Assembly: GCA_017506865.1 (NCBI GenBank)
Contig: JAFCMP010000123.1
Location: 1-64,000 of the forward strand
Length of the DNA stretch: 64,000 nucleotides
Source of the DNA: Tribonema minus
Lineage: Eukaryota > Sar > Xanthophyceae > Tribonematales > Tribonemataceae
Direction of reading: 5' to 3'
Shown: positions 13,661 through 64,000 of the stretch, one piece after another
How positions within the stretch are numbered: position 1 is the stretch's first letter
How the letters are laid out: every line of letters begins with the position of its first letter
Translations under genes and position numbers: made by a program
The notes under the pieces: model-generated
What the model was told of the DNA's origin: nothing
The model's input: the letters and a program-made list of their open reading frames with translations, nothing else
Database searches by the model: none

Positions 13661-13673
13661 GCATCACGTGAAC

Positions 13674-14143
13674 AAAATGACGTTGACAGGAACAATCTGA
13701 TTGCAATGTTGTCAGCCAGCATTGCTGTGCATCCCTATCTTGGCAAGCGAACTTCCGTGGCATTTTTTTTAGTCATCCGCTGCCAAATGCACGTTGTGAG
13801 ACATTGCATGTCAGGCTTGCACAAGTCTTTGGTGTTGAGCGCTGGCTAATCTGCAGTGATCATGATGGTATTTTTCCAGAATGTGCCAGCTGACACCCAA
13901 AGGTGACAAAAATGACGTTGACAGGAACAATCTGATCGCAATGTTGTCAGCCAGCATTGCTGTGCATCCCTATCTTGGCAAGCCAACTTCCGTGGCATTT
14001 TTTTTAGTCATCCGCTGCCAAATGCACGTTGTGAGACATTGCATGTCAGGCTTGCACAAGTCTTTGGTGTTGAGCGCTGGCTAGTCTGCAGTGATCAAGA
14101 TGGTATTTTTCCAGAATGTGCCAGCTGACACCCAAAGGTGACA
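13674..14143. repeat. Two-copy tandem duplication, 235-bp unit
   Basis: The unit starting AAAATGACGTTGACAGG is repeated head to tail with a period of 235 bp and very few differences, inside a transposase intron. Near identity points to a recent duplication. Confidence 0.9.
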
Positions 14144-50127: not shown

Positions 50128-53100
50128 ATGACGACCGCTGCCGCGGGCAACAATGGTAGCATGGAGGTGCTCTTCATGGAGAGCTTCAAGAAAGTGCGCA
50201 AGGCCTCCAGCAGGAAGCACAAGGAGCTGAGGGCCGCCTGCGATGCTGCCATTGAGCAGCTCAACAAGGCCAAGTACCTGGGCTTTGGCATAGAGCGGTA
50301 CTGGGACGTCTTTGACCTCGCCCTGGTCGCAGGTTCAAATGATGTCACCGAGGCAGCTCTGGAGGCTCTAGCGCGCATTACTCAGGACGGCTATATAAAA
50401 CCCGAGGCGACTGTGGAGAGAGGGGGGAGGGTGATGGAGCTGGGGGCAGCGGTGCTGGACGTAATCTGCGAGAGCAAGCTGGGCACCGACGTTGCGCGCC
50501 TGTGGTCGGCCAAGGCCCTACTGGCCTGCATCACCCACGCAGAGGTCCAGATTCACGGGGAGGCCCTGGTGAAGGCGCTCCGCGTGCTGCGCGGCTCCGC
50601 GCTGGAGGCGAAGTCCGCACCCACCAAGGCGGCGGCGCGCAGCGCGCTGCAGGACGTCGTCATGAGCACGTTCGCGCGCATGGAGGCCGCGGAGGTGCGC
50701 CGCAGCCAGGAGCCCCCCCCTCCCCCGCCGCCGCCGCCCCCCGTCTCTGCGGCGCACGCGTCCGCCGCGGCGGCCAGCCCCACCGCGTCCTTGTCGCAGG
50801 CGGCGACGGCGTCCGTCTCGCCCGCGACGTCGGCCCCGGTGAGCCCCACGGCGGCGGCGGTTACAGCGGGCGTAACCGCGGCGGTGCTCGCGCGCCGCGT
50901 CGTGGTCGCGCTGCCGCGCAGCATCGAGGCCATGTACCCCGAGGTCTTCGAGCACCTGGACTACGCGCTGGACTTTGAGGTTGACGCGGCGCGGGGCGCG
51001 GCCGCGGCGGGCGCGCTGGTCGGGGGCGCGGCGGCGGCGGCGGCGGCGGGCAGCGGCGCCACGTCCGGGGGGAAGGCGGCGGCGGGGACGTTCAGGCAGG
51101 GGGGGTTCCGGTTCCCGACCATGCAGCACAGGTGAGCGGCGGTTGCTGTTGCTGTGCGCTGTCTTTTCACTGGCGCGCCGCTGTTGACACCAGTGCCGCA
51201 CCGCTCTGTATCGGCGTCTAGGGGTGGAGACTATATGATAGGGCATGAGTGCTGCCGGGGAGGGCTTTCGGGTTCTGTGTCACTTTAGTGGCAGAGGCGC
51301 AGCCAGCGGCCACGATGATGCCGAGGCTGCTGCAGCGATGGGGAAGGAGTCAGAGCAGAGGTCTGGTGCAGCAACCGATAATGTTTCTGAATGCCTTTCC
51401 AGCTGACTTTGAATGGCACATCAGCTGGCAGCCCGTCTAATCAATATCAGCGGCATGCAGAGGGTGGGGTTATTGGGTCGCTGGCTCCCGTTGGTGCACC
51501 TTTGAGTACATAGGGTAGGTATGGATTATTGACGATTACGAGCGTTACTGAGCTGCCACCAATCCCGCAGCGGTCTGTGTTGAGGTAAGTAGTCCACGTT
51601 GCAGTGATGCTCAGCGGCAGTACTACTACTGCTGGGAATACTGAAGATATGCAGAAGTGATTATTGAAGCTCATCAGAAAAAACACTCACACAGGTCGGA
51701 GCATTGCTGATGTGTGAAGTTGGTGACGCTCCGCCACCAACATACTTCAAGAAGTACATCACAGTCTTGTAGCTTTGTTTGGTATCCCTGCTAGTATGTG
51801 GGGGACAGTCGCTTGCGGGTGCTTTGTTGGGGGTGATGTGGGGGGCGGGGTGTGGCGTGCAAGCTTTGCATGCTACATCCAAGAGTGAGAACAAGGCGAC
51901 ACACCTACAACATGGCATTTCCACAGCCACAAGTGGAATATAATAAAAGTACATCACACAAATGATTTTCTGTGCACGCAACGTCATGCCCTGGGCCCGC
52001 ATAGGGTTTTGTGCCACTCTACCCGAAAGCCTGACCCTGCCGGCAGCAGCTAGCAATGGTCATTAGCGTGCCTTCAACCTGAATGGGGAGACATAAGTGT
52101 CAACCTGCATGGGTATGTAAGTAGGTCAGGGCATAGTCGGTTACATGCTACTCTACTGCGAAGCCTGGCCCTAGTGGCAGCAGCTTTCGAAACTTTTAAA
52201 ATAATGTGCCATGCAATACTTCAACCTGTATTGTTGGTTGGTGATGAGGGCATTGTTTGAGGGTATGGATATGTATCTATCAGTACACACACATGCCGCA
52301 AAGTACAGCTGAGCGTTGTGGCTAGTGCCTCAGACAATGAGGTGGTGTAGCGGTGGCAACGAGCAGACGTTTGTTGAAGCACATACCAAGACACACATCC
52401 GATACAGCTCGAGGTTTCCCGTGGGATCGCACTCATTCAGAATTCTGCAGAAGCAGTTCCTGGAAGCGTTGCACACTGCACCAGCGCGTGCCATCTCTAG
52501 TCTACCCGTATCGTAGCCGCATGGACTCGCGCTTAAGAGTGTCGCGGATCGCAAGCCGCACACGGCAGACGTATCCAAGCACCAACACTACACTGCAAGA
52601 GCTGAGGGCTCGAGGCAGGGTTAAACCAGGTGTTCAAGTCACATGCGCATGCACCTCGCACTACCCACTCGCGGCACTGTGGTGCAAGGGTCGCTGCGCT
52701 GAATATGCTAGGACTTGTGAGACACCATGGTGCAGTTCGCACCCGACCTTGTTGAGGCACTCCATTGTCAATGAGCACTGCTGTGCACGCTGGTAGGGTT
52801 AGGTCACGCAAACCCCACCTTCAGTTGTAGATAGTAGATGGTCGCTCATGCAGATGTCGCTTTGCGCTGTCTGGGCTGTGGCGCTTGGTGTGCATTGGCA
52901 CACGCGCCTATACTTGGCCCGCCGCAACTTTGAATGCGGAGACGAGGTCGCCATGCCCTACTAGTGCTTAGGGTTAGGGTTAGGGTGAGGACTAGGGCTA
53001 GGGTTACCGTGGACCACGCCGAAGCGTGCGCGGCCCGGCCACAATGCTCCAAACAAAGTTATTGTGGAGCCACTGGTATCAAGTTGAAGTACGAGTTGAA

Positions 53101-56100
53101 GTATTGCTGTGGTGGTTGCGAACTTGACGCGTCGTGATGAAAATGTGACCGTTGTGTCTGCTTGGTGTGCCATATGCCGACGCCGCCACCGCATGCGCGG
53201 CGTCACGGAGACGTGTGGGTGTGCCTGCGCGAGCGCTGCGCTCTCAAAAAGAGGCCAGATGACAACCACGCATCACTAACATGATGAACTCGGACCTCGT
53301 GTGATGAAACACTGTCGCCGACGCTTACCCCTGTCACAATGAACTTGAACTTCACACTTAGTCATTGACGTCGTCTCGAAAGTTTAGTTCAAAACAAAAA
53401 GTTCTAATTAGGTATTAATCGTGAAACAGAAGCTGTTTTATCACCCATCCGTGTGCTAGCAAACCGCCGCAGGGACGCGTGGATGTGCCTGCGCCAGCTC
53501 TGCACCCCCACGGAGAGGCCAGACGATCAACCAGTATTACTGCGACAATGAACTTGAACCTTGTGTGGTGAAAACCTGACGCCGCCTGCGCTCGCCCGTG
53601 TGCCGCGCAGGGACGCGTGGATGTGCCTGCGCGAGCTCTGCACGCCCACGGAGGACCAGGCGGCGACGCTGCTGCGCCTTGAGCTCGTGCTCGAGCTGCT
53701 CGAGAAGAGCGGTCCCGCGTTCCGCAGCGGCGAGCCCTTCGTCGACTGCGTGCGCACGGGGCTGTGCGCGGAGCTCCTCAAGAACTGCACGAGCAGCGTG
53801 ATGCCGGTCGTGTCGCTGTCGCTGCGCATCTTCGTGGCGCTCACGCGGCACTTCAAGGACCACCTGAAGTCGGAGGTTGAAGTCTTCGTCACGCGCATCT
53901 TCCTGCGCATCCTCGAAAGCGAGAACCGCTCACACGAGCAGAAGGTGGGTAGCCCTAACCTAACCATAACCCTGACCCTAATTCAACTGTCAGGACCTTG
54001 GTGTATGCTGCGAAGAAGCATCAGTTGATCATTGAGAGCAAGAGAGTCATCTGGATAAATGCGGGGGTGGGGGAGGGGAGGGGGGGGGGGGAGGTTGTAC
54101 ACTCAATCCGGCTTGCCCCCTGTGGTTGGTTTGCATGGTAAGGCAGGCGCAACTTTGGGTTAGCATCAGGGTTAGTATTCTCGCAAATGGCCCTGCAGCG
54201 TCTTCTATGCTGCTGCGCTATAGGCATTACGTTGCGCGCCCTGCACGGAGATGCTCCTCCCCAGCAAGCCACAGGGGACAATTGCATGCCTCTCTGGTTT
54301 GACGCGCGCCGCCCCCTGCCTCTTTGACTTACCTGCCAACGTCGCTCATCCCCCCCCCCCCCCCCCCCCCCAGATGTTCTACGACCTCTGCACCTCTGCA
54401 CGAACTCGCGCGCATCATCACGACGCTCCGTTGCGTGGCAAGGTCGCCGGCTCATGCGCACATTGGCGAGATTCTGGGCTGCTGCGTGTCAATTGCGCCC
54501 GCCTGCTGCCTCTTGACACACCTGCCTGCGCCGCTCCCCCCCCCCCCCCCCCCCTTTTCATGCCCCCCCCCTCAGATGCTGGTGCTGGAGGTGTTCTACG
54601 ACCTCTGCACGGACCCGCGCGCGCTCGTTGAGATCTTCCTCAACTACGACTGCGACCTCTACGCCATCGACCTCTTCAAGCGCATCGTCGCGTCCATGGC
54701 CAAGGTCGCTAAGACGGCGCAGAAGCCCGCGTCCGGTGAGAAGCGGAGAGAGCGGTTTTGGGGGGTCAGGTCCCCCGCTAGCTGTTCTTGGCCGTTCTTT
54801 GCACAGGACGTTGTACCCCCAGCTCATCTCAGTGAAGCTATATTGTCCCCCCCTGCGCACACACTCCATTCCACTGGATCACGTGTGCTCCGGTGTTCGC
54901 TGGGAGGGTGAGCACTGGCGTGCAGGTGGTTGGCCAGCAGCGCCCGCCGCTGATCGCTGCTGCACATCGGGCCGCGCGCGTTGAAGGCATCATACCGCTC
55001 AGCACGACTGCGTCTGCCGGAACCGCACCAATCGAGGGTTAGGCTAGGGTTAGGGTTAGGGTCAGGGTTAGATGAATGAGCAGCGCTCATGCCTTGACCA
55101 TCACATTCTTTCAATTGTTGGTGCGTGGAGGTGTGTCAAGGATGGGGGCGACGGCGCCAGCAAAGTGTGCCGCACCAGCCGTAGACGCTGGCTGTTTCTT
55201 GTAACTGCCCGTAACTGCCACGACTGGAGTGATGCGCGAGCGCCGCGGTGCTGCCCATGTACGTGGCGTGCGCCGCTCTCAACTTGACCTCCTTGCGCCC
55301 CCGCGCAGCGCGCGCGGCGCCGTCGCAGCGGCGCCTGCCGCAGTAGCAGGCGCGGTGTCGTGCTGCCTCGAAGCACCACTGCTGTTCCTGGCAACCTGCC
55401 AGAGGGTTAGTAGAAGGGTCAGCGGAGCTAGGGCTAGGGTTTGAACGAGCACCTCCTCTCCCCCGGCGCTGCACCTGCTGTAACCGTTCCGAAGCTGCCG
55501 CGCGCGTAACCGCTCGCTGCTCTCCACGCAGGCGGCTCTGCGTCCGCGGGATTTCGCAAGCACCCACGCGCCTCCTCTCCACCGGTGCTGCGCAAGCGGC
55601 GCTGCGTCACCGTTGCAAAGCTGCCGCGCATGACCGCTCTGCAAAAATGCCGCGCGCGTGACCGCTCGCGCTGCTCTGCGCGCACGCGGGTCCGCGTCCG
55701 CGGCGACGCCTTGCAGAGCGCGCTGCCGCTCCCACCAACGCCTCGCAGAGCGCGAGCAAATCGCCCTGAAAAGCTCTGCATGCGCGCGCGCGAGAGCGCT
55801 TCTTTCTGTTGCGCGCATAATCGCTCGCTGTGCGCAGGCGGGTCCGTGTCCGCGGAGCGCGCGGCGCGCAACGACGACGCGCTGCGCGAAATCACCCCGA
55901 ACCGCCGCCCGCGCGTGCAACAGTTTCAAAATCGCTGCCGCAGTAGCACTCTATCGTACGCTCCGCGAGCGACGCTCCGTAACCACAACTGCCGCGCGTA
56001 CCCGCTCTTCGCGCCGGCGGCTCCGCGTCCGCGGGTGCTCGCGAGCGCCCACGCGCCTCCTTCTCACTGGTGCTGCACGTATAGTCCGTTTTGAAATTGT

Positions 56101-59100
56101 AACGAAACTGCCGCGCGCGTGACCGTTGCGGTCTGTCTGCGCAGGCGGCTCGGCGTCCGCGGAGCGCGCGGCGCGCGACGACGACGCGCTGCGCGCCTTC
56201 GGCCTCGAGGGCCTCGCCGCCGTCGTCGCGAGCCTCCACAAGGTGGCACGGCTCGACGAGCTAGACTCCATCGACCCCTACCACGGCGGCGGCGGTGGCG
56301 CCAGTTTCGGCGGCGGTGGCGGCAGCGGCAGCGGCGTCGGCGGCTCGCTGCACGAGTCGGAGAGCGACGATGCGCTGCAGGAGCTGCTCGCGCAGCAGCG
56401 GCGCGCGGCGAGCGGCGGCTCGCACGGCATCCACCACCACCCCGTGACGCCGCCGCCGCAGCCACGCGCGCTGGCCTCTCCCGGCTTTGCGGCAGGTGAC
56501 GCAGACGGCCCTCGCGGCGGGCGAGGCAGAGGCTGGGCGTAGAACAAACTAGGCATCGCACAGGACAGATGTAGTGAATACTGGGTGCATGCGCCGATAA
56601 CCTCTGACCAGATTTCGGCCCCGTGACGCCGCCGCAGCCGCGCGCGCTGGCCTCTCCCCGGCTTTGCGGCGGGTGAGGCGGAGAGTGGGCGCCGAGCACA
56701 CCGAGCAATGCGTAGGACAAATGCAGTTTTGATGCTGGATGCGTACACCAATAACCTCTGACCAGACTTCGGCCCCTTGACGTCGCCGCCGTGCATGCCG
56801 GCCGCCCCGGCCCAAGCGGCAGGTGCGGCAGTTATACTTTGAGGTAACGTGAGCGCTGGCCTGAATGGGCGTGAAACAGACCAGGCATTGCATAGGACAC
56901 ATGTAGTTAATGCTAGGTGCGTACGCCAATAACCTCTGACCAGACCTCGGCGTCAGAGGCGTCCACCCTCGGCATCCACCACCGCCCCGTGACGCCGCCG
57001 CCGCAGCAGCGCGCGCCGACCGCGCCCTCGGGCTTCGCGGCAGGTGAGGCAGGACAGTGTCTTGGGTGGCGCCAGCGCAGGGCTCAGTATTGAGCGCTGC
57101 TGTCGTCTTGCCCCTCTCGCCCTGCGTCTTATGATGTGGCAGTGCTCAGCGACGGCATTTGCCGCCACCACCCCGTGACGCCGCCGCCGCAGCGCGCGCC
57201 GGCCGCCGCCCCGGGCTTCGCGGCAGGTGAGGCGGAGCGGACAGGCCCTGAACCGCATGCACAGCTTAGGGCTAGGGTTAAGGGTGATTTAAAAGGTTGG
57301 GGTTCGCTTAGGGGACCTAACCCTAACCCTGACCTAACCCTAACGCCACGGGCATCGAAAGCATCTTGTGATACAATACGTGTAGCATCCCTCAGGAAAC
57401 ACCGTACAAGTGCCAGGCCTTGCTATCCGACTCACCCGCAGCCATATGCTCCTCCCCCCCCCCCCGCCCCGCGCGCGCAGCGACCCCCCCCGGCGCCACC
57501 ACCCCCGCTGCCGCCGCCGCGAACGGCGGCGCGCCGTCGCCGCACTCGGCCTTCGACATGAAGAAACGCATGCAGGAGGAGCTCGAGACGGGCATCGCGG
57601 CGTTCAACCTCAAGCCCGACAAGGGCCTCGCGTACCTGGCGGCGTGCGGGCACCTCGACGCCGCCGACGCGCGCGCCGTCGCCGTCTTCTTTCACGAGCA
57701 CGCCGCGAGGCTCAACAAGACGGTCGTCGGGGAGTACATGGGCAGGTAGGTCACGCGCGCTTTTGCGCTGAGCGTTGATGACGATGATGCGGCGTGTCAC
57801 CTGAGTGCTTGAGGCAGCGGATTGAATACTAGTATTTCCTCAGCGTACGTCAACAGTGCTAAGACGGTATCGGCCAGTGTTCTTTCACAAGCACGCCGCG
57901 AGGCTCAACAAGACGGTCGTCGGCGAGTACATGGGCAGGTGCGCTGAGCGGTGCGCGCACTTTTGTGCTGAGCGTTGATGACGACGTGTCGTCTGAGTGC
58001 TTGAAGCAGCAGACTGAATACTTGTATTTCATCAGCGTATGTCAACAGTGGTGGGACGCGCGCGCCGTCGCTGTCTTCTTTCACGAGCACGCCGTGAGGG
58101 TCAACACGACGGTTGTCGGCGAGTACATGGGCAGGTACGCGCTGCGCGCTGAGCGTTGCTGACGATGATGAGTGCTCAGGGCAGCGAATCAATATGCCAT
58201 CAAAGTGCGTTGACAGTGGGAAGGCAGTCAGCGGCAAATACATGCGCGCCGTCGCCGTGTTCTTTCACCAGCACGCCGCGAGGCTCAACAAGACGGTCGT
58301 CGGCGAGTACATGGGCAGGTGCGCTGAGCGGTGCGCGCGCGCGCTCTTGTGCTGAGCGTTGATGTGCGTTGGAAGTGGTGGTGATGCTCAGGCGTGGCAC
58401 GCGTCGCGCGTGGGCCAGACTTTAGTCGGCGAGTACATGAGCAGGCGCACTGAGCGTTGGTGTTGGTGACGACGCGTGCTGAGCGTGATGAGGCGCGGCA
58501 CCTGAGAGCTCGAGGCAGCGAATTGAAGTCCTCATCAGCGTACGTTTGCAGTGGTCAGACAATATCAGCCTGTGGTCTTCCTTGAGCACGCGGCGTGCCT
58601 AACAAGACGGTCGTCGGCGACTACATGGGCAGGTGCGCGCGCAGTGCGCTGACCTCTGCTGACAAATACATGTGCTTGAAGCAGCAAATTGAAAGTCTCA
58701 TCAGCGCACGTCAAAGCAGTGGGAAGACGGTCGGCGGCGGCGAGTAGTACATGGGCAGGTGTGCATGCGCGGTGTGCGTGCGCGGACCGCTGATGAGGCT
58801 GGCGGTGATGATGCTCAGGCGTGGCGTGCGCGATTGCGCGAGGCGGTAGCAGAGCGCAATCGCGCACGCCACGCCTGAGCATCACCGTCGTGCGCACCTC
58901 GACCTTGATGCCTTCAACCACTGCGTCGATTGCTGCATCACCGCCTCTCACGTGACCCTCCATCTTCAACCCCCTCCCTGCGCCTCACATCCTTCCTCTA
59001 CTGCTGCCGCCTCCGCCACCGCCGACGCCATTTCCGCCGCCATTTCCGCCGCCGCTGCTGCCGCCGCTGCCGCCACCACCGCCGCCACATCCGCTGCCGC

Positions 59101-62100
59101 CGCTGCCGCCGCCGCCGCTGCCGCCGCCGCCGCCAGGGGGCGCGACGACCACGGCGGCTTCGGCGTCGCGGTGCTGCACGCGTACGTGGACCTCATGTCG
59201 TTCCGCGGCCTGGCCTTTGACGAGGCGATCCGCCACTTCCTCGCGGGCTTCCGCCTGCCCGGCGAGGCGCAGAAGATCGACCGCGTCATGGAGAAGTTCG
59301 CAGAGCGCTACTGCCTCGACAACGCGGGCGTCTTCCCGAACCCCGACACGGCATTCATCCTCGCCTTCAGCGTCATCATGCTCAACACGGACCTGCACAA
59401 CCCCGCGATCCGCGAGGACCGCCGCATGACCAAGGCGGGCTTCATCGGCAACTCGCGCGGCATCAGCGCCGGCGGCACGGACCTGCCCGAAGAGCTGCTC
59501 GGCGCGATCTTCGACCGCATCGCTGCGGCTCCCATCAGCCTCAAGGTGAGCGCGGAGCACATACGCAAATCTAGCAGCGCTAGGTCCAGGGTTAGGGTTA
59601 AGGTTAGGGTTAGGGTGAGCGTTAGGCTTGTTCGAGAGATCTTTGACCGCATCGCCGTTGCGCCCATCAGCCTCAAGGTGAGCTCGGCACAAGCTGGCAG
59701 CGCTAGGGTTAGGGTTAGGTTCAAAGTCAAGTTAGGGTAAGGCTCATTAGCGAGATCTTGGACCGCATCGCCGCCGCGCCCATCAGCCTCAGGGTGAGCG
59801 CGCCTAGCACTGCTGCGGGTGACGACGTGTGCAACGGGCAGGGCAGGGGCGGCGCGGCGCAATGAGCGGCGAGGATGTGCACTAAACTAAACCTTGAGAG
59901 TTCAAGTCTTATGACTTCAAGCGGCCTTCAGCCTCAAATTGAGCGCTGAGCGCTGCTGCGGGCGACGGAGGTGCAATGAGCAAGGGGGCAACGGCAGCGC
60001 GGTCGTCGGCGGCGGCGCGTCAACACTTGCAGTTGGTTATGTGTGCTCTCCTGCACGCGTACGCCGCTGCTGATACTCACCGTCGTGTTACAAACGGCGT
60101 GCGCGTTGCATGCAGGAGGACGACGACAGACGCACCAAGCAGGGCAAGGGCAGCGCGGCGCTGGGCGGCGGCGCAGCCAACCTGCAGGACATGCTCGGGG
60201 GCGCCGCCGCCAAGCGGCGCGCGCGCGACGAGGCGCTCGAGCGCGAACGCGAGGACATGCTCAAGGTGAATACATATCTGAAAGTATTCGCTGAAGCGTG
60301 TGTGCAGATGTGATTGTTGGTTTCAATAATTTCAAGGTGGATATGTTGTGCATGACAAGGCTTGTAATAATATGCGCAAATAGAGCCATTTACCTCTTGT
60401 ACTTGTATATGCCGCCAAGAGGCGCGCGCGCGATGAGGCGCTCGAGCGAGAGCGCGAGGACCTACTCAAGGTGAGTGAGTTGTTTTACTAGATTGTTTTG
60501 GTATAATGGAAAAGATTCAAAATATCGCTGAGCTCTAGGTGACGAGGTGTGGTTAGCCGCCAGTGCCTTCCACAGATCACAGCGGTCACCGCTGTATGTC
60601 ATGTTACTTCCGAAGTGTATGTATGCAGACTCGCATCGGCATCCGCTTTCCCACGCCACTGCAACACAGCTCGGCAGCGCTGTCCCGGCGCGCGTAGTCC
60701 TGTGCAAGCACCACGCTGCCGGGCGCCGCTTTTTAACTTGAAGTGTGGCAGTCATCGCCGAGTTGCATCGATGCTCGCTCTCCCGTGCCACATCGAAGCA
60801 CAGCTCAGTCGCCTGCGTAAGCCTCACGGCACATTTGAGTTGTGTGTTGTCCTACCGCGCGCGGTTCCGCACGGACGCGCTGCGGTCGCACAACGCCGTC
60901 ATATATTCGCTGTATAGACACGTACACTGAAATAGAAGTATTGTGTAGAGTGTTAGTGTGTCGGAGCGCGATTAAGACGTGATGACGCACCATACTTTCC
61001 CGCCGCGCGCAGTCTGGCGCGAAGGCGCTGCGCTCGCAGAACTATGATACTGCTTCAAGCACTTGAAGTGGCATGACAGTCTCGGAGGGGAATCTAATGC
61101 GTAACCCCCGCCCCCCTCATGCTTCCCTGCCGCGCGCAGTCCGGCGCGGAGGCGCTGCGCTCGCAGAACGCCGCCAAGCGCCGCGGCAGCGCGCGCTACA
61201 TCAACGCGGACGACGCGCCGTCTCTGGCGCCGCACGCGCAGCCCATGTTCGAGGTCGCCTGGGGCCCGGCGTTCGGCGCGTTCAGCCAGGTCAGGGCTAG
61301 GGTTAGGATTAGGGTTAAGGTTATGGTTAGTAGTATGGTTAGGGTTAGGGCTAGGGCGCCGCATGCGCAGCCCATGTTCGAGGTCGCGCGTTCAGCCAGG
61401 TCAGGGTTGGGATTAGGGTTACGGTTAGGTGGTTTAGGTTTAGACGTGGCGGTTTCTTGAGATTTGTGCGGTGCGCCTCATGAGGCAAAGGCGCGCTGAG
61501 GGCCTGCAAGCAGCCCGTGGTCGAGGCCGTCTGGCGCCCGGCGTTCGGCGCGTTCAGCCAGGTCAGTTTGCGGTTTCTGAAGTGCGCGGTCAGTGAGGTG
61601 AACTCACGGTTTCTGATGCGCGCGCGGTGCGAGGGTTGGGGTTAGCGTCAGGGTTGGGGTCAGGGTTAAAGGTAGGGTAGGGGCGCCTGGGGGCCGGCGA
61701 TCGGCGCGTCCAGCCGGGCCAGTCTGCGGTTTCTGATGTGTGCGAGACACGAGGCGTCAATGTTTGTTTGAGCTGCACCAAGCAAGGCGCATCGAAGCCT
61801 GCGAGAGTGCTGAGCGTTGACGCGCCGTTCACGGTGCGTGCAAGGCGCGATAAAGCTTGCACACAGAAGTGTGTTTGTCTACTGTGGTTATGGTGGCACT
61901 GTTTGACTCATGGCCAATGACTGCAGCAGCGGCGACCACGGTTATTGGTGGAAGGCACTTGCGGCTAACCATCCCTTGTCACCTAGAGCTCAACGATCTT
62001 TTTTATTCGTTTTTCATTTGGGTCAGGGCTAGGGAATTGGGTCAAGGTTGAGGTGAGGGCGCTATCCCTGAGTCAAATGCGCGCGGCGTGCCTGCCGTGT

Positions 62101-64000
62101 GAGGCAACCCGCTCCCAGAGAGCTGAGCCTCATGTGGTCGAGTGCGGCCCTTAGTATTAGGGTTAAATTTAGGATTACTGCATCACCGTGCCTGTGAGGT
62201 CGCGCAGCTTATGGTTAGGGTTAGTGTTTAGGGTCAGCTAACCCTAAACCCGTATCCTAACGCAGCTTGCCAGAGCCCGCCCACCACCGTACAACCAAAC
62301 CACAGTGCGTGTGCCTTTTCGTGCGCGGAGGCCTGCGACCGCGCTGAGCGCTACTGCGTCGTTTGCGCCTTGGGGTTAGGGTTAGGGTTAGCGAGCGGCA
62401 GCGCTCGTCGACACGGTCGCTGCGCCAGAGGCGCTGCTCAGCTGTGTACGCATCCACATTTGTCTGGCGTTGCATGACCACTGCATGTTTTGGTGAGGTG
62501 CGCTTCGATGACGAGACGAGAGAAGCTTGACCAGCAATTCACCGAAAGTACTGATTCGCGGAGCACCTGGGGCGGTGGCGCGAACTTCAAAGTCAAACTC
62601 AACATCTTGCGAGGCGAATGGTAAAAGCACTGTACCGCAGCCATCGGCATACACCACAGACTACCACACATTCATTGAAGCTGAGCATTGCTGAGCGTTG
62701 CGTACCTGCAGCACTCCCCCCCTCCCCCGCTTGCTGCCTGAAACTTCAATCTGACCCCCCTCCCTCTCCCCCTGTGCGCAGGTCCTGGAGTTCGCCGAAG
62801 AGCCCAAGACGGTGGCGCTGTGCCTGCGCGGCCTGCGCCAGGGCGTGCGCCTCGCAGGCGCGCTCGACATGTCAACAGCGCGCGAGGCCTTCGTCAATGC
62901 CATCGCCAAGTACGTTCCCCCTTTCCCTTCGGCCCAACCCGCTGCTGTCACGGTAGCAGCTAATCCTAAACCTAATCCTAACTTTAAGCCAAGAAGCAGT
63001 ATGACATGAAGCGTTCGTTGCAAGCGAGGCCTTTGTCAACGCAGGTGCCCTCTCCCCCCCTCCTGGCCCTTCCAGTAAAGGATTTGATACGCGAGAGCTA
63101 AGCCATTAAATAGATGCTACAGTTTGCCGCAAATAAGGCCTGCATCAACACGATTGCAAAGTCACAGCTCACCCTGCTCTACTTCCAGATGGCCAGGTTT
63201 GCTCGCATAATGCCATCGTACGACAGCACGCTCCGCGTGCGACAGTAGCCGCCTTCCAACAGCTTGCCTTGCTTGAAATTTATCAGCGGCCACTACACCT
63301 GCATTCAGGGTGCGAGTTGCCAGCATAGCGTGCGCACAGTAATCGACAGGCGCTGGACGAAGGCCAAACGTAGCTGAAGCAGGGGGATCAACAGGGTACG
63401 CCAGGTTGCGCGACGGGCGAGTACTCGACCTGCGAAGTACGATTTATCTTACGGGTGAACCGGGTCGCTGTTAGGATTACGATCTATCATAATCGAACGT
63501 TATAATCGAACGCTGTATCAATCAGCTAACCGTCCTTAACAATGTGACTTTGATATAAGTCACGTACACTTCGAAGCATGGAGTTTTGCGTACACGAGTG
63601 ACCCCCCCCCCCCCCCCATGCGCACCCCCACCCCTCCCCCCCTCATCGTCCCCCCCCCCCCACGCAGGTACACGGTCGTCGACAGCGCGCGCGACCTGCG
63701 TCCCAAGTCCGTCGCGTGCATCAACGCGCTGCTCGCGGTGGCGCTCTCCGACGGCAACCTGCTGCGCGAGTCCTGGTCCGCAGTGCTCAACTGCGCGTCG
63801 CGCCTCGCGCGCCTCCAGCTCTCCGCGAGCGGCCTCGCCACCGACGACGCCTTCTTCTCCGCGGACCCTATCGTCGACGCGTCCGTCGCCGACGGCGCTG
63901 CTGCTGCCGGCCGCGGCGGCGGCAACGCGCAGTGGGACTGGGTCGCGGACCTCAAGCGCACGTTCGACAGCGGCGCCGCGGCGGCGGCGGCGGGGTTCGG
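50128..64000 (+). CDS. BIG-type ARF guanine-nucleotide exchange factor (Sec7), 3' end outside window
   Basis: Ten exons with consistent phase: 50128-51131, 53611-53944, 54576-54735, 56145-56495, 57481-57745, 59137-59545, 60116-60265, 61140-61289, 62782-62909 and 63668 onward. Exon 1 is the DCB domain (FMESFKKVRKASSRKHKELR, dimer interface). Exons 2-3 are the HUS box with the FLNYDCDLY motif. The Sec7 domain starts in exon 5 (KKRMQEELETGIAAFNLKP) and ends in exon 6, with the catalytic glutamate loop FRLPGEAQKI, FAERYC and FSVIMLNTDLHNP. Exons 8-10 are HDS repeats (RESWSAVLNCASRL). It activates ARF GTPases at the trans-Golgi or endosome for vesicle budding. About 1,150 residues are read, roughly two thirds of the family length. 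Low-complexity Gly/Ala/Pro stretches in exons 1 and 4 are unusual. All nine introns contain copies of splice junctions; several also have telomere-like runs. Confidence 0.93.
51839..51953 (-). repeat. Dispersed 115-bp repeat, copy 2
   Basis: Exact reverse complement of 31503-31617. It lies in ARF-GEF intron 1. Confidence 0.9.
52969..53006. repeat. Telomere-like run in ARF-GEF intron 1
   Basis: TTAGGGTTAGGGTTAGGG followed by degenerate AGGGCTAGGGTTA units. Confidence 0.85.
53205..53658 (+). repeat. Echo of exon 2 start in intron 1 (two copies)
   Basis: The acceptor plus first 50 bases of exon 2 (53605-53658) recurs at 53465-53518 (period about 138) and more diverged at 53205-53260. The following 60 bases of each unit also match, so the unit carries exon and intron sequence. 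Confidence 0.85.
53950..53986. repeat. Telomere-like CCCTAA run in ARF-GEF intron 2
   Basis: CCCTAACCTAACCATAACCCTGACCCTAA begins six bases after the donor of exon 2. Confidence 0.85.
54230..54610 (+). repeat. Echo of exon 3 start in intron 2, with poly-C tracts
   Basis: A C22 tract ends at an acceptor at 54373; the exon-like text TTCTACGACCTCTGCAC follows it at 54377 and again inside exon 3 at 54594. The preceding intron sequence is also duplicated. Confidence 0.85.
55035..55070. repeat. Telomere-like run in ARF-GEF intron 3
   Basis: GGGTTAGGCTAGGGTTAGGG and similar units; a shorter one lies at 55428-55441. Confidence 0.85.
55531..56190 (+). repeat. Echo of exon 4 start in intron 3 (four copies)
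   Basis: Copies of the acceptor and exon start GGCGGCTCGGCGTCCGCG begin at 55531, 55685, 55837 and 56013, before the real exon at 56145. Spacings are 154, 152, 176 and 131 bp. The third copy also matches further into the exon (GCGCGGCGCGCAACGACGAC). Confidence 0.85.
56443..57225 (+). repeat. Echo of exon 4 end in intron 4 (four copies)
   Basis: The exon end ending GGCTTTGCGGCAG, with donor, recurs at 56621-56671, 56775-56822, 56970-57042 and 57151-57225. Three copies keep a donor-like GGTGAGG. About 100 bases of intron between the copies are also repeated (for example AACCTCTGACCAGA at three places). Confidence 0.9.
57265..57345. repeat. Telomere-like runs in both orientations, ARF-GEF intron 4
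   Basis: TAGGGCTAGGGTTAAGGG lies at 57267-57284, and CCTAACCCTAACCCTGACC follows at about 57318-57345. Confidence 0.85.
57685..58759 (+). repeat. Echo of exon 5 end in intron 5 (six copies)
   Basis: The exon end CTCAACAAGACGGTCGTCGG...TACATGGGCAG and donor recur at 57879-57939, 58061-58134, 58246-58319, 58424-58445 (partial), 58573-58632 and 58723-58759. The third copy is almost unchanged for 75 bases and still reads as Sec7-domain protein. This is the longest such array in the window. Confidence 0.92.
58810..58883. repeat. Perfect 30-bp inverted repeat with 14-nt loop
   Basis: The arm starting GATGCTCAGGCGTGGCGTGC at 58810-58839 is exactly complementary to 58854-58883. It lies in ARF-GEF intron 5, just after the echo array, and would form a strong stem in the pre-mRNA or a cruciform in DNA. 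Confidence 0.92.
59500..60180 (+). repeat. Echoes of exon 6 end and exon 7 start in intron 6
   Basis: The exon 6 end (GACCGCATCGC...CCCATCAGCCTCAAG) recurs at 59634-59685 and 59749-59800, each with a GGTGAGC donor. Diverged copies of the exon 7 start (GCAAGGGCAGCGCGG-like) are at 59815-59870 and 59957-60030. Both edges of one intron are echoed. Confidence 0.8.
59583..59740. repeat. Telomere-like runs in ARF-GEF intron 6
   Basis: Two blocks of AGGGTTAGGG-type units at 59588-59625 and 59703-59740, each following an exon 6 echo. Confidence 0.85.
60200..61170 (+). repeat. Echoes of exon 7 end and exon 8 start in intron 7
   Basis: The exon 7 end (GCGCGCGCGACGAGGCGCTC and onwards to CTCAAG) recurs at 60410-60475 with its donor. 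The exon 8 start (CGCGCAGTCCGGCGCGG) recurs at 60858-60905 and 61001-61050. Confidence 0.85.
61240..61725 (+). repeat. Echo of exon 8 end in intron 8 (three copies)
   Basis: The exon 8 end (CCATGTTCGAGGTCGC ... GTTCAGCCAG with GTCAGG donor) recurs at 61352-61410, 61510-61570 and 61680-61725, increasingly diverged. Confidence 0.85.
61294..61445. repeat. Telomere-like run beginning at the exon 8 donor
   Basis: GTCAGGGCTAGGGTTAGG starts at the donor and continues as degenerate AGGGTTA units; a second block follows the echo at about 61400. Further blocks are at 61636-61680, 62155-62250 and 62370-62392. Confidence 0.85.
62870..63165 (+). repeat. Echo of exon 9 end in intron 9 (two short copies)
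   Basis: The exon 9 end GAGGCCTTCGTCAATGCC recurs as GAGGCCTTTGTCAACGC at 63026-63043 and as AAGGCCTGCATCAACACGAT at about 63135. Telomere-like CCTAAACCTAATCCTAA lies between, near 62964. Confidence 0.65.

Follow-up and report, generated by a model that had tools for sequence, protein, structure and literature searches.

The window, 64,000 nucleotides of DNA (C123:1-64000) from a genome assembly of 158 Mb in 554 contigs, ends in a gene for an ARF-GEF of the BIG/Sec7 type on the forward strand. Our gene model has 10 exons and nine GT-AG introns and stays open for 1094 amino acids without a stop codon. It comprises exon 1 (50128 to 51131), exon 2 (53611 to 53944), exon 3 (54576 to 54735), exon 4 (56145 to 56495), exon 5 (57481 to 57745), exon 6 (59137 to 59545), exon 7 (60116 to 60265), exon 8 (61140 to 61289), exon 9 (62782 to 62909), and the first part of exon 10 (63668 to 64000), which runs past the end of the window. 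Pfam recognizes DCB, HUS, and Sec7 domains in the model, with matches in exon 1 and, for the Sec7 core, in exon 6. The protein of a relative, P0001 (1875 amino acids), is 67% identical to the ARF-GEF and also supports exon 1. Its alignment covers all nine junctions, unambiguously at seven (junctions 3 and 4 sit in weakly conserved sequence), and has zero echo segments, that is, copies of exon edges, inserted. The ARF-GEF protein matches listed number 120, the majority without an organism name; the named proteins among the nearest ones come from Chrysoparadoxa, Ochromonadaceae, Pelagophyceae, Triparma, oomycetes, and diatoms, all of them stramenopiles, and the source of this DNA is therefore most likely a stramenopile too.

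The introns of this gene contain echoes of its own exon edges. We compared 18 exon edges of 60 bp each with their own introns and with 300 shuffled versions of every intron, and in each of the nine introns the best own-edge match exceeded 300 of 300 shuffles, marginally so in intron 9. The claim of the earlier note that every intron carries such copies is thus borne out for this gene, which was, like the window, selected for the echo pattern itself. Self-BLAST of 50-64 kb, with filtered rows read by eye, revealed direct-repeat arrays at exon edges in introns 1 and 3 to 8. Intron 1 (51132 to 53610) has acceptor echoes at about 53210-53320 and 53468-53525 (best acceptor-edge score 79 versus a shuffle maximum of 35). 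Intron 2 (53945 to 54575; acceptor edge, 39 versus 28) contains a copy of exon 3 bases 14-35 at 54372-54393, and self-BLAST found there a pair of similar pyrimidine-rich stretches (54304-54367 and 54495-54554) rather than an edge-tied array. Four acceptor echoes lie in intron 3 (54736 to 56144; 82 versus 46), at 55490-55549, 55648-55703, 55831-55888, and 56004-56076, and four donor echoes in intron 4 (56496 to 57480; donor edge, 83 versus 38), at 56619-56683, 56773-56829, 56970-57052, and 57152-57236. The longest array, of six donor echoes, occupies intron 5 (57746 to 59136; 108 versus 31), with starts near 57877, 58055, 58244, 58417, 58575, and 58724. Intron 6 (59546 to 60115; donor edge, 59 versus 26) has donor echoes near 59638 and at 59750-59802, a weak one at 59921, and, at 59986-60018, a weaker match to bases 27-59 of exon 7. 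Both edges recur in intron 7 (60266 to 61139; donor edge, 90 versus 28), the donor at 60411-60474 and the acceptor at 60851-60901 and 60991-61042. Intron 8 (61290 to 62781; donor edge, 79 versus 31) has donor echoes at 61355-61427, 61510-61566, and 61681-61722, and the shuffle test assigns to intron 9 (62910 to 63667) a single marginal donor-side echo of 19 bp at 63024-63042 (28 versus 24).

Two further properties had been ascribed to these copies. Inclusion of the splice site is seen in seven of the nine introns and not in introns 2 and 9, where the match stops 13 and 9 bp, respectively, from the junction. The spacing, given as 80-210 bp, does not stand: the nearest copies are 63-463 bp apart across all boundary and intron-only arrays of 98 sampled introns. 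Whole-unit adjacency is visible in part of the arrays only. The strict array pipeline used below counts only introns 1, 4, 5, and 6 of this gene, the others being lost to short matches or to the low-complexity filter, which removes GC-rich edges; it is therefore conservative.

Other repeats share this DNA. Telomere-like TTAGGG/CCCTAA hexamers occur at 1.03/kb in predicted introns, 0.41 in intergenic DNA, and 0.03 in exons, with 164 in 147 kb of intron versus 23 in one dinucleotide-based resampling; examples in introns of the window are at 59588-59626 and 61289-61356. Intron 8 harbors a dispersed repeat of about 75-160 bp (approximately 61852-62018, inverted at 60519-60594), copies of which, about 79-91% identical and in both orientations, lie in introns on contigs C1, C2, and C60 and at other sites of C123; we guess that it is a MITE-like or short interspersed element. 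Intron 5 contains, at 58809-58884, an imperfect palindrome of 76 bp with 87% complementarity, upstream of the GC-rich acceptor tract. In DNA without a gene call, 13668-14143 holds a young tandem duplication, two copies of 235 bp with 97.5% identity and up to 6 bp shared at the break.

The ARF-GEF gene had been put forward as a special case, which it is not: boundary arrays are also present at sampled loci and in 13 of 31 introns of kinesin genes. Our de novo set covers 297.7 kb (the window and further stretches of the genome) annotated with a home-made gene finder, which skips exons and takes some echoes for exons, and which broke the ARF-GEF gene apart in the latter way. We excluded introns shorter than 150 bp and retained 98 of the 105 sampled. 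Outside the ARF-GEF gene, 60-bp edges had copies in their own introns at 11/76 donors and 9/82 acceptors, compared with 1/89 and 0/95 in unrelated introns. The second set consists of seven kinesin genes found by a Pfam scan and chosen for several exons in a short span, with echoes disregarded. First exons shorter than 40 bp and the last exon on C520 were removed as probable false calls; the junctions are predictions, and those on C101 look doubtful. The kinesin genes on C246 and C511 were left out of the set, an echo having already been noticed there. At these two loci (G000:C246:700950-701488 and C511:561699-562092) a second, shorter kinesin hit covers again the end of what the preceding exon had matched, so some donor echoes are detectable by family search alone. 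Next to the window, a multi-exon prediction at C123:79-101 kb (L003-L005) has junction echoes in many introns (12/22 junctions), and C123:97921-98160 within it is an exon for a P-type ATPase domain (PF00122).

Over the 98 sampled and 31 kinesin introns (129 in total), an exon edge matched its own intron in the forward direction in 44 of 246 comparisons and in the reverse direction in none of 246, and exon ends had no match in the intron on the wrong side (0/120). The direct orientation and the correct side claimed for the copies are therefore confirmed. Any surviving duplication that crosses a boundary places copies of an exon end downstream of it and copies of an exon start upstream of it, so this arrangement is expected in any case. 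A more sensitive search found at least one copy at 56 of 258 junctions, 96 copies in total; the ends of genes at start and stop codons have a few echoes too (3/54). Genes differ strongly, from 0/14 to 7/8 junctions spanned (chi-square of 72, 17 degrees of freedom), so that genes rather than introns are the effective sampling units; in three of the seven kinesin genes, no junction or a single one is spanned. We considered exon GC content as a driver and rejected it, junctions with and without an echo being alike (Mann-Whitney P of 0.95); the two kinesin genes of lowest exon GC have no echoes.

Do duplications prefer splice boundaries? The earlier note said so and set the pattern apart from random duplication, which would also strike exon interiors and intergenic DNA. 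Tandem arrays are found in intron interiors and intergenic DNA as well; the preference holds against several null models in the kinesin genes and is near the null in de novo models outside C123. In the kinesin introns, boundary arrays outnumber intron-only arrays 18 to 7 after strict filtering of low-complexity and telomere-like pairs, 20 to 13 with a milder filter, and 20 to 15 without a filter. The main competing explanation holds that tandem duplication is uniform, that selection purges exon-internal events, and that exon conservation keeps boundary copies recognizable, with no preference for boundaries. In its favor, both intron interiors and intergenic DNA hold many arrays, and exon parts diverge at half the rate of intronic parts, which favors their detection. 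Because a conserved exon makes boundary copies easier to detect, we modeled tandem duplication at a uniform rate, placed exons under constraint, allowed indels, and applied the detection used on the real introns; the nine parameter settings had duplication and indel rates chosen by hand and unfitted. The simulated kinesin introns had a pooled boundary/intron-only ratio of 0.28-0.55, against an observed 2.6 (strict) and 1.5 (mild). The largest number of boundary arrays in any of the 153 simulated sets was 13, short of the observed 18; individual sets with few arrays had ratios as high as 1.75. Furthermore, the exon part of arrays is shorter than uniform duplication predicts, exceeding 93 bp in 2 of 71 extents compared with 17-43% in the simulation. 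A simulation-free comparison of the kinesin genes gave 18/62 junctions spanned versus 3.2% of intron bases in intron-only arrays under the strict filter, a junction/interior ratio of 9.0 (gene bootstrap, 3.6-19.5); with the mild filter the ratio was 5.4 (2.0-12.4). Halving 5.4-9.0 for visibility leaves about 2.7-4.5.

The de novo set outside C123 also speaks for the uniform process. In the whole de novo set the junction/interior ratio is 1.8-2.0, with bootstrap intervals that include 1, and boundary and intron-only arrays number 17 and 25 (11 and 9 on C123, 6 and 16 on other contigs) where the simulated null ratio is 0.21-0.33, so that the 6 versus 16 outside C123 is near the null. Repeats equally common away from junctions, which the earlier note had named as evidence against boundary specificity, are thus nearly what the models outside C123 show and not what the kinesin genes show. 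The weak excess of the de novo set is owed in part to misannotation: the gene finder missed the ATPase exon at C123:97921-98160, which lies inside a predicted intron holding two pairs misfiled as intron-only. In the de novo models, arrays cover 11.7% of intron edges, 10.6% of intron interiors, 14.1% of exon edges, 4.8% of exon interiors, and 6.1% of intergenic DNA. Detection bias alone as the cause of the boundary preference had rested on this near-flat coverage and was dropped after the kinesin set. Taken together, the boundary preference is likely real, short of proof, and uniform duplication appears unlikely as the whole explanation.

Are the copies retained because they work, as alternative exons or as alternative or decoy splice sites? 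The earlier note had proposed a functional reservoir of alternative splice sites, and many copies do keep an exon edge plus GT or AG. A free copy compared with a constrained exon should differ by some amount d at the first two codon positions and by roughly twice as much (2d) at the third and in the intronic part of the unit, whereas coding constraint on the copy should give much less change at positions 1 and 2. Over 49 partly nonindependent pairs (arrays reuse one exon edge; pairs with exon on both sides were excluded from the codon counts), we counted 54/753 (7.2%), 56/753 (7.4%), and 116/756 (15.3%) differences at positions 1, 2, and 3 and 500/3296 (15.2%) in the intronic part. A replicate with 28 kinesin pairs gave 38/482 (7.9%), 33/482 (6.8%), and 75/474 (15.8%) and, for the intronic part, 554/3194 (17.3%). 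Positions 1 and 2 hence differ equally, and position 3 and the intronic part differ about twice as often, which fits a free copy set against a constrained exon; the coding constraint expected of a duplicated alternative exon is absent from both sets of counts. In copies aligned through the junction, splice dinucleotides are retained at 29/34 donors and 12/18 acceptors, 41/52 overall, close to the neutral expectation of about 80% at the 10-11% divergence of the exon part. The protein P0001 lacks echoes at all nine junctions. By these sequence comparisons we see no sign of a coding or splicing function maintained in the copies, and because they appear to drift neutrally, a reservoir of splice sites, or any other use that would preserve them, is very unlikely.

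Equally hard to sustain is an origin of these introns from introner-like mobile elements or from duplication of exonic AGGT segments. Tandem duplication is an accepted route of intron gain (PMC3443670, PMC4974935), and in 14 of the 129 introns a repeat recurs in introns of other genes, in three cases coming within 30 bp of one end. However, the shared repeat reached both intron ends in 0/14 (a small sample of predicted introns), so that among the 129 introns we found none from different genes that are alike to near both splice sites. Donor and acceptor regions, which an AGGT duplication should leave homologous, were alike in 2 of the 44 introns tested, scoring over the 99th percentile of mismatched pairs, which is not beyond chance; both are ARF-GEF introns (7 and 9). 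The echoes, moreover, originate from the intron's own edge, and we regard either origin as highly improbable. Tandem arrays are difficult to assemble and the sequence here is the assembly alone, but an assembly artefact is hardly credible for copies in multicopy arrays that are about 1-26% off their exon edge, carry the codon-position signature, and lie on several contigs.

The echoes are probably neutral remains of short tandem duplications across the exon-intron boundary, with units mostly of 60-300 bp. After a duplication crosses the boundary, the outermost junction would stay in use and the inner copy would turn into intron, and therefore the protein would be unchanged while the intron grows. 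The intron growth suggested in the earlier note fits the rise of echo frequency with intron length, from 1/38 junctions in introns of 150-400 bp through 11/88 and 22/68 to 24/64 in introns longer than 1300 bp; this trend is as expected if arrays lengthen introns, and longer introns also give more room. New copies may arise mainly at the junction and displace older ones inward. In arrays of at least two copies, the farthest copy was more diverged in 16, less in 7, and tied in 3 (sign test P of 0.09, permutation P of 0.03), which points weakly to the junction as the place where new copies form. Four two-copy tandems with at least 90% identity, one of which touches a junction, share 0-6 bp at the break, and any microhomology was no longer than that. 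Slippage and end-joining repair are both compatible with so little shared sequence.

Why junctions? Duplications may start more often near them, or junction-spanning ones may be better kept. One idea is initiation there, for which paused polymerase, R-loops, and nucleosome edges are candidate triggers. Break repair at paused transcription, which the earlier note raised, may contribute. Another is that exons are prone to duplication and that selection spares only boundary-crossing events, against which the short exon extents speak somewhat. A third is that long exon-like copies are removed since mis-splicing would result. Our best reading is that duplications are focused on, or best tolerated at, junctions, that introns lengthen, and that copies decay. 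A stronger version, that a mutational process of this lineage duplicates DNA in place at junctions, with splicing or transcription marking the sites of growth, introns lengthening as the junction in use is copied again and again, and the newest copy nearest the exon, is possible, and we put it forward tentatively.

Transposons and anonymous small insertions are the usual explanation for intron lengthening. The echoes seem to be a footprint of intron growth and not a working device, and the copies look functionless. The exon fragment in every copy can serve as an internal clock, since it changes freely whereas the exon itself is conserved. With this clock one could date episodes of intron growth and ask directly whether mutation is concentrated at splice junctions. 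The echoes are also a warning to annotators, because they resemble exons.

How does this compare with known systems? In tandem exon duplication and mutually exclusive exons, exon sequence is duplicated into the neighboring intron; the echoes share the presence of exon sequence in the adjacent intron and differ in consisting mostly of one edge and one splice site that decay neutrally. Introners (PMC9860276) form dispersed families whose members resemble one another almost up to both splice sites; in both cases intron content grows across many genes, with echoes deriving from each intron's own edge instead of from dispersed families. Direct repeats at exon-intron borders are common to the echoes and to the system of Rogers and Bendich (2025; PMC11782384), whose repeats measure 4-30 bp and match one end of an intron with its other end; the echoes place about 20-110 bp of exon edge inside the same intron, the two ends of which are unlike. 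Tandem duplication across a splice boundary giving rise to a new intron is already known (PMC4974935, PMC3443670). The echoes agree with it in being direct copies with a unit that crosses the junction and depart from it in that no new intron is created: each copy falls within one intron of the ARF-GEF model, and P0001 has no extra segment at the nine junctions. We found no earlier description of repeated in-place copying of an intron's own edges as a common mode of intron lengthening in the literature searched, which excluded most subscription journals. A close likeness is a potato gene, described in PMC3443670, in which the duplicated unit crosses the intron-exon boundary with its splice signals and which also has an 83-bp tandem duplication within an intron. 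Both cases involve tandem duplication across an intron-exon boundary; in the potato gene it produced a new intron and extra exon sequence, whereas here the intron lengthens only, the copy seems unused, and the same event recurs at many junctions.
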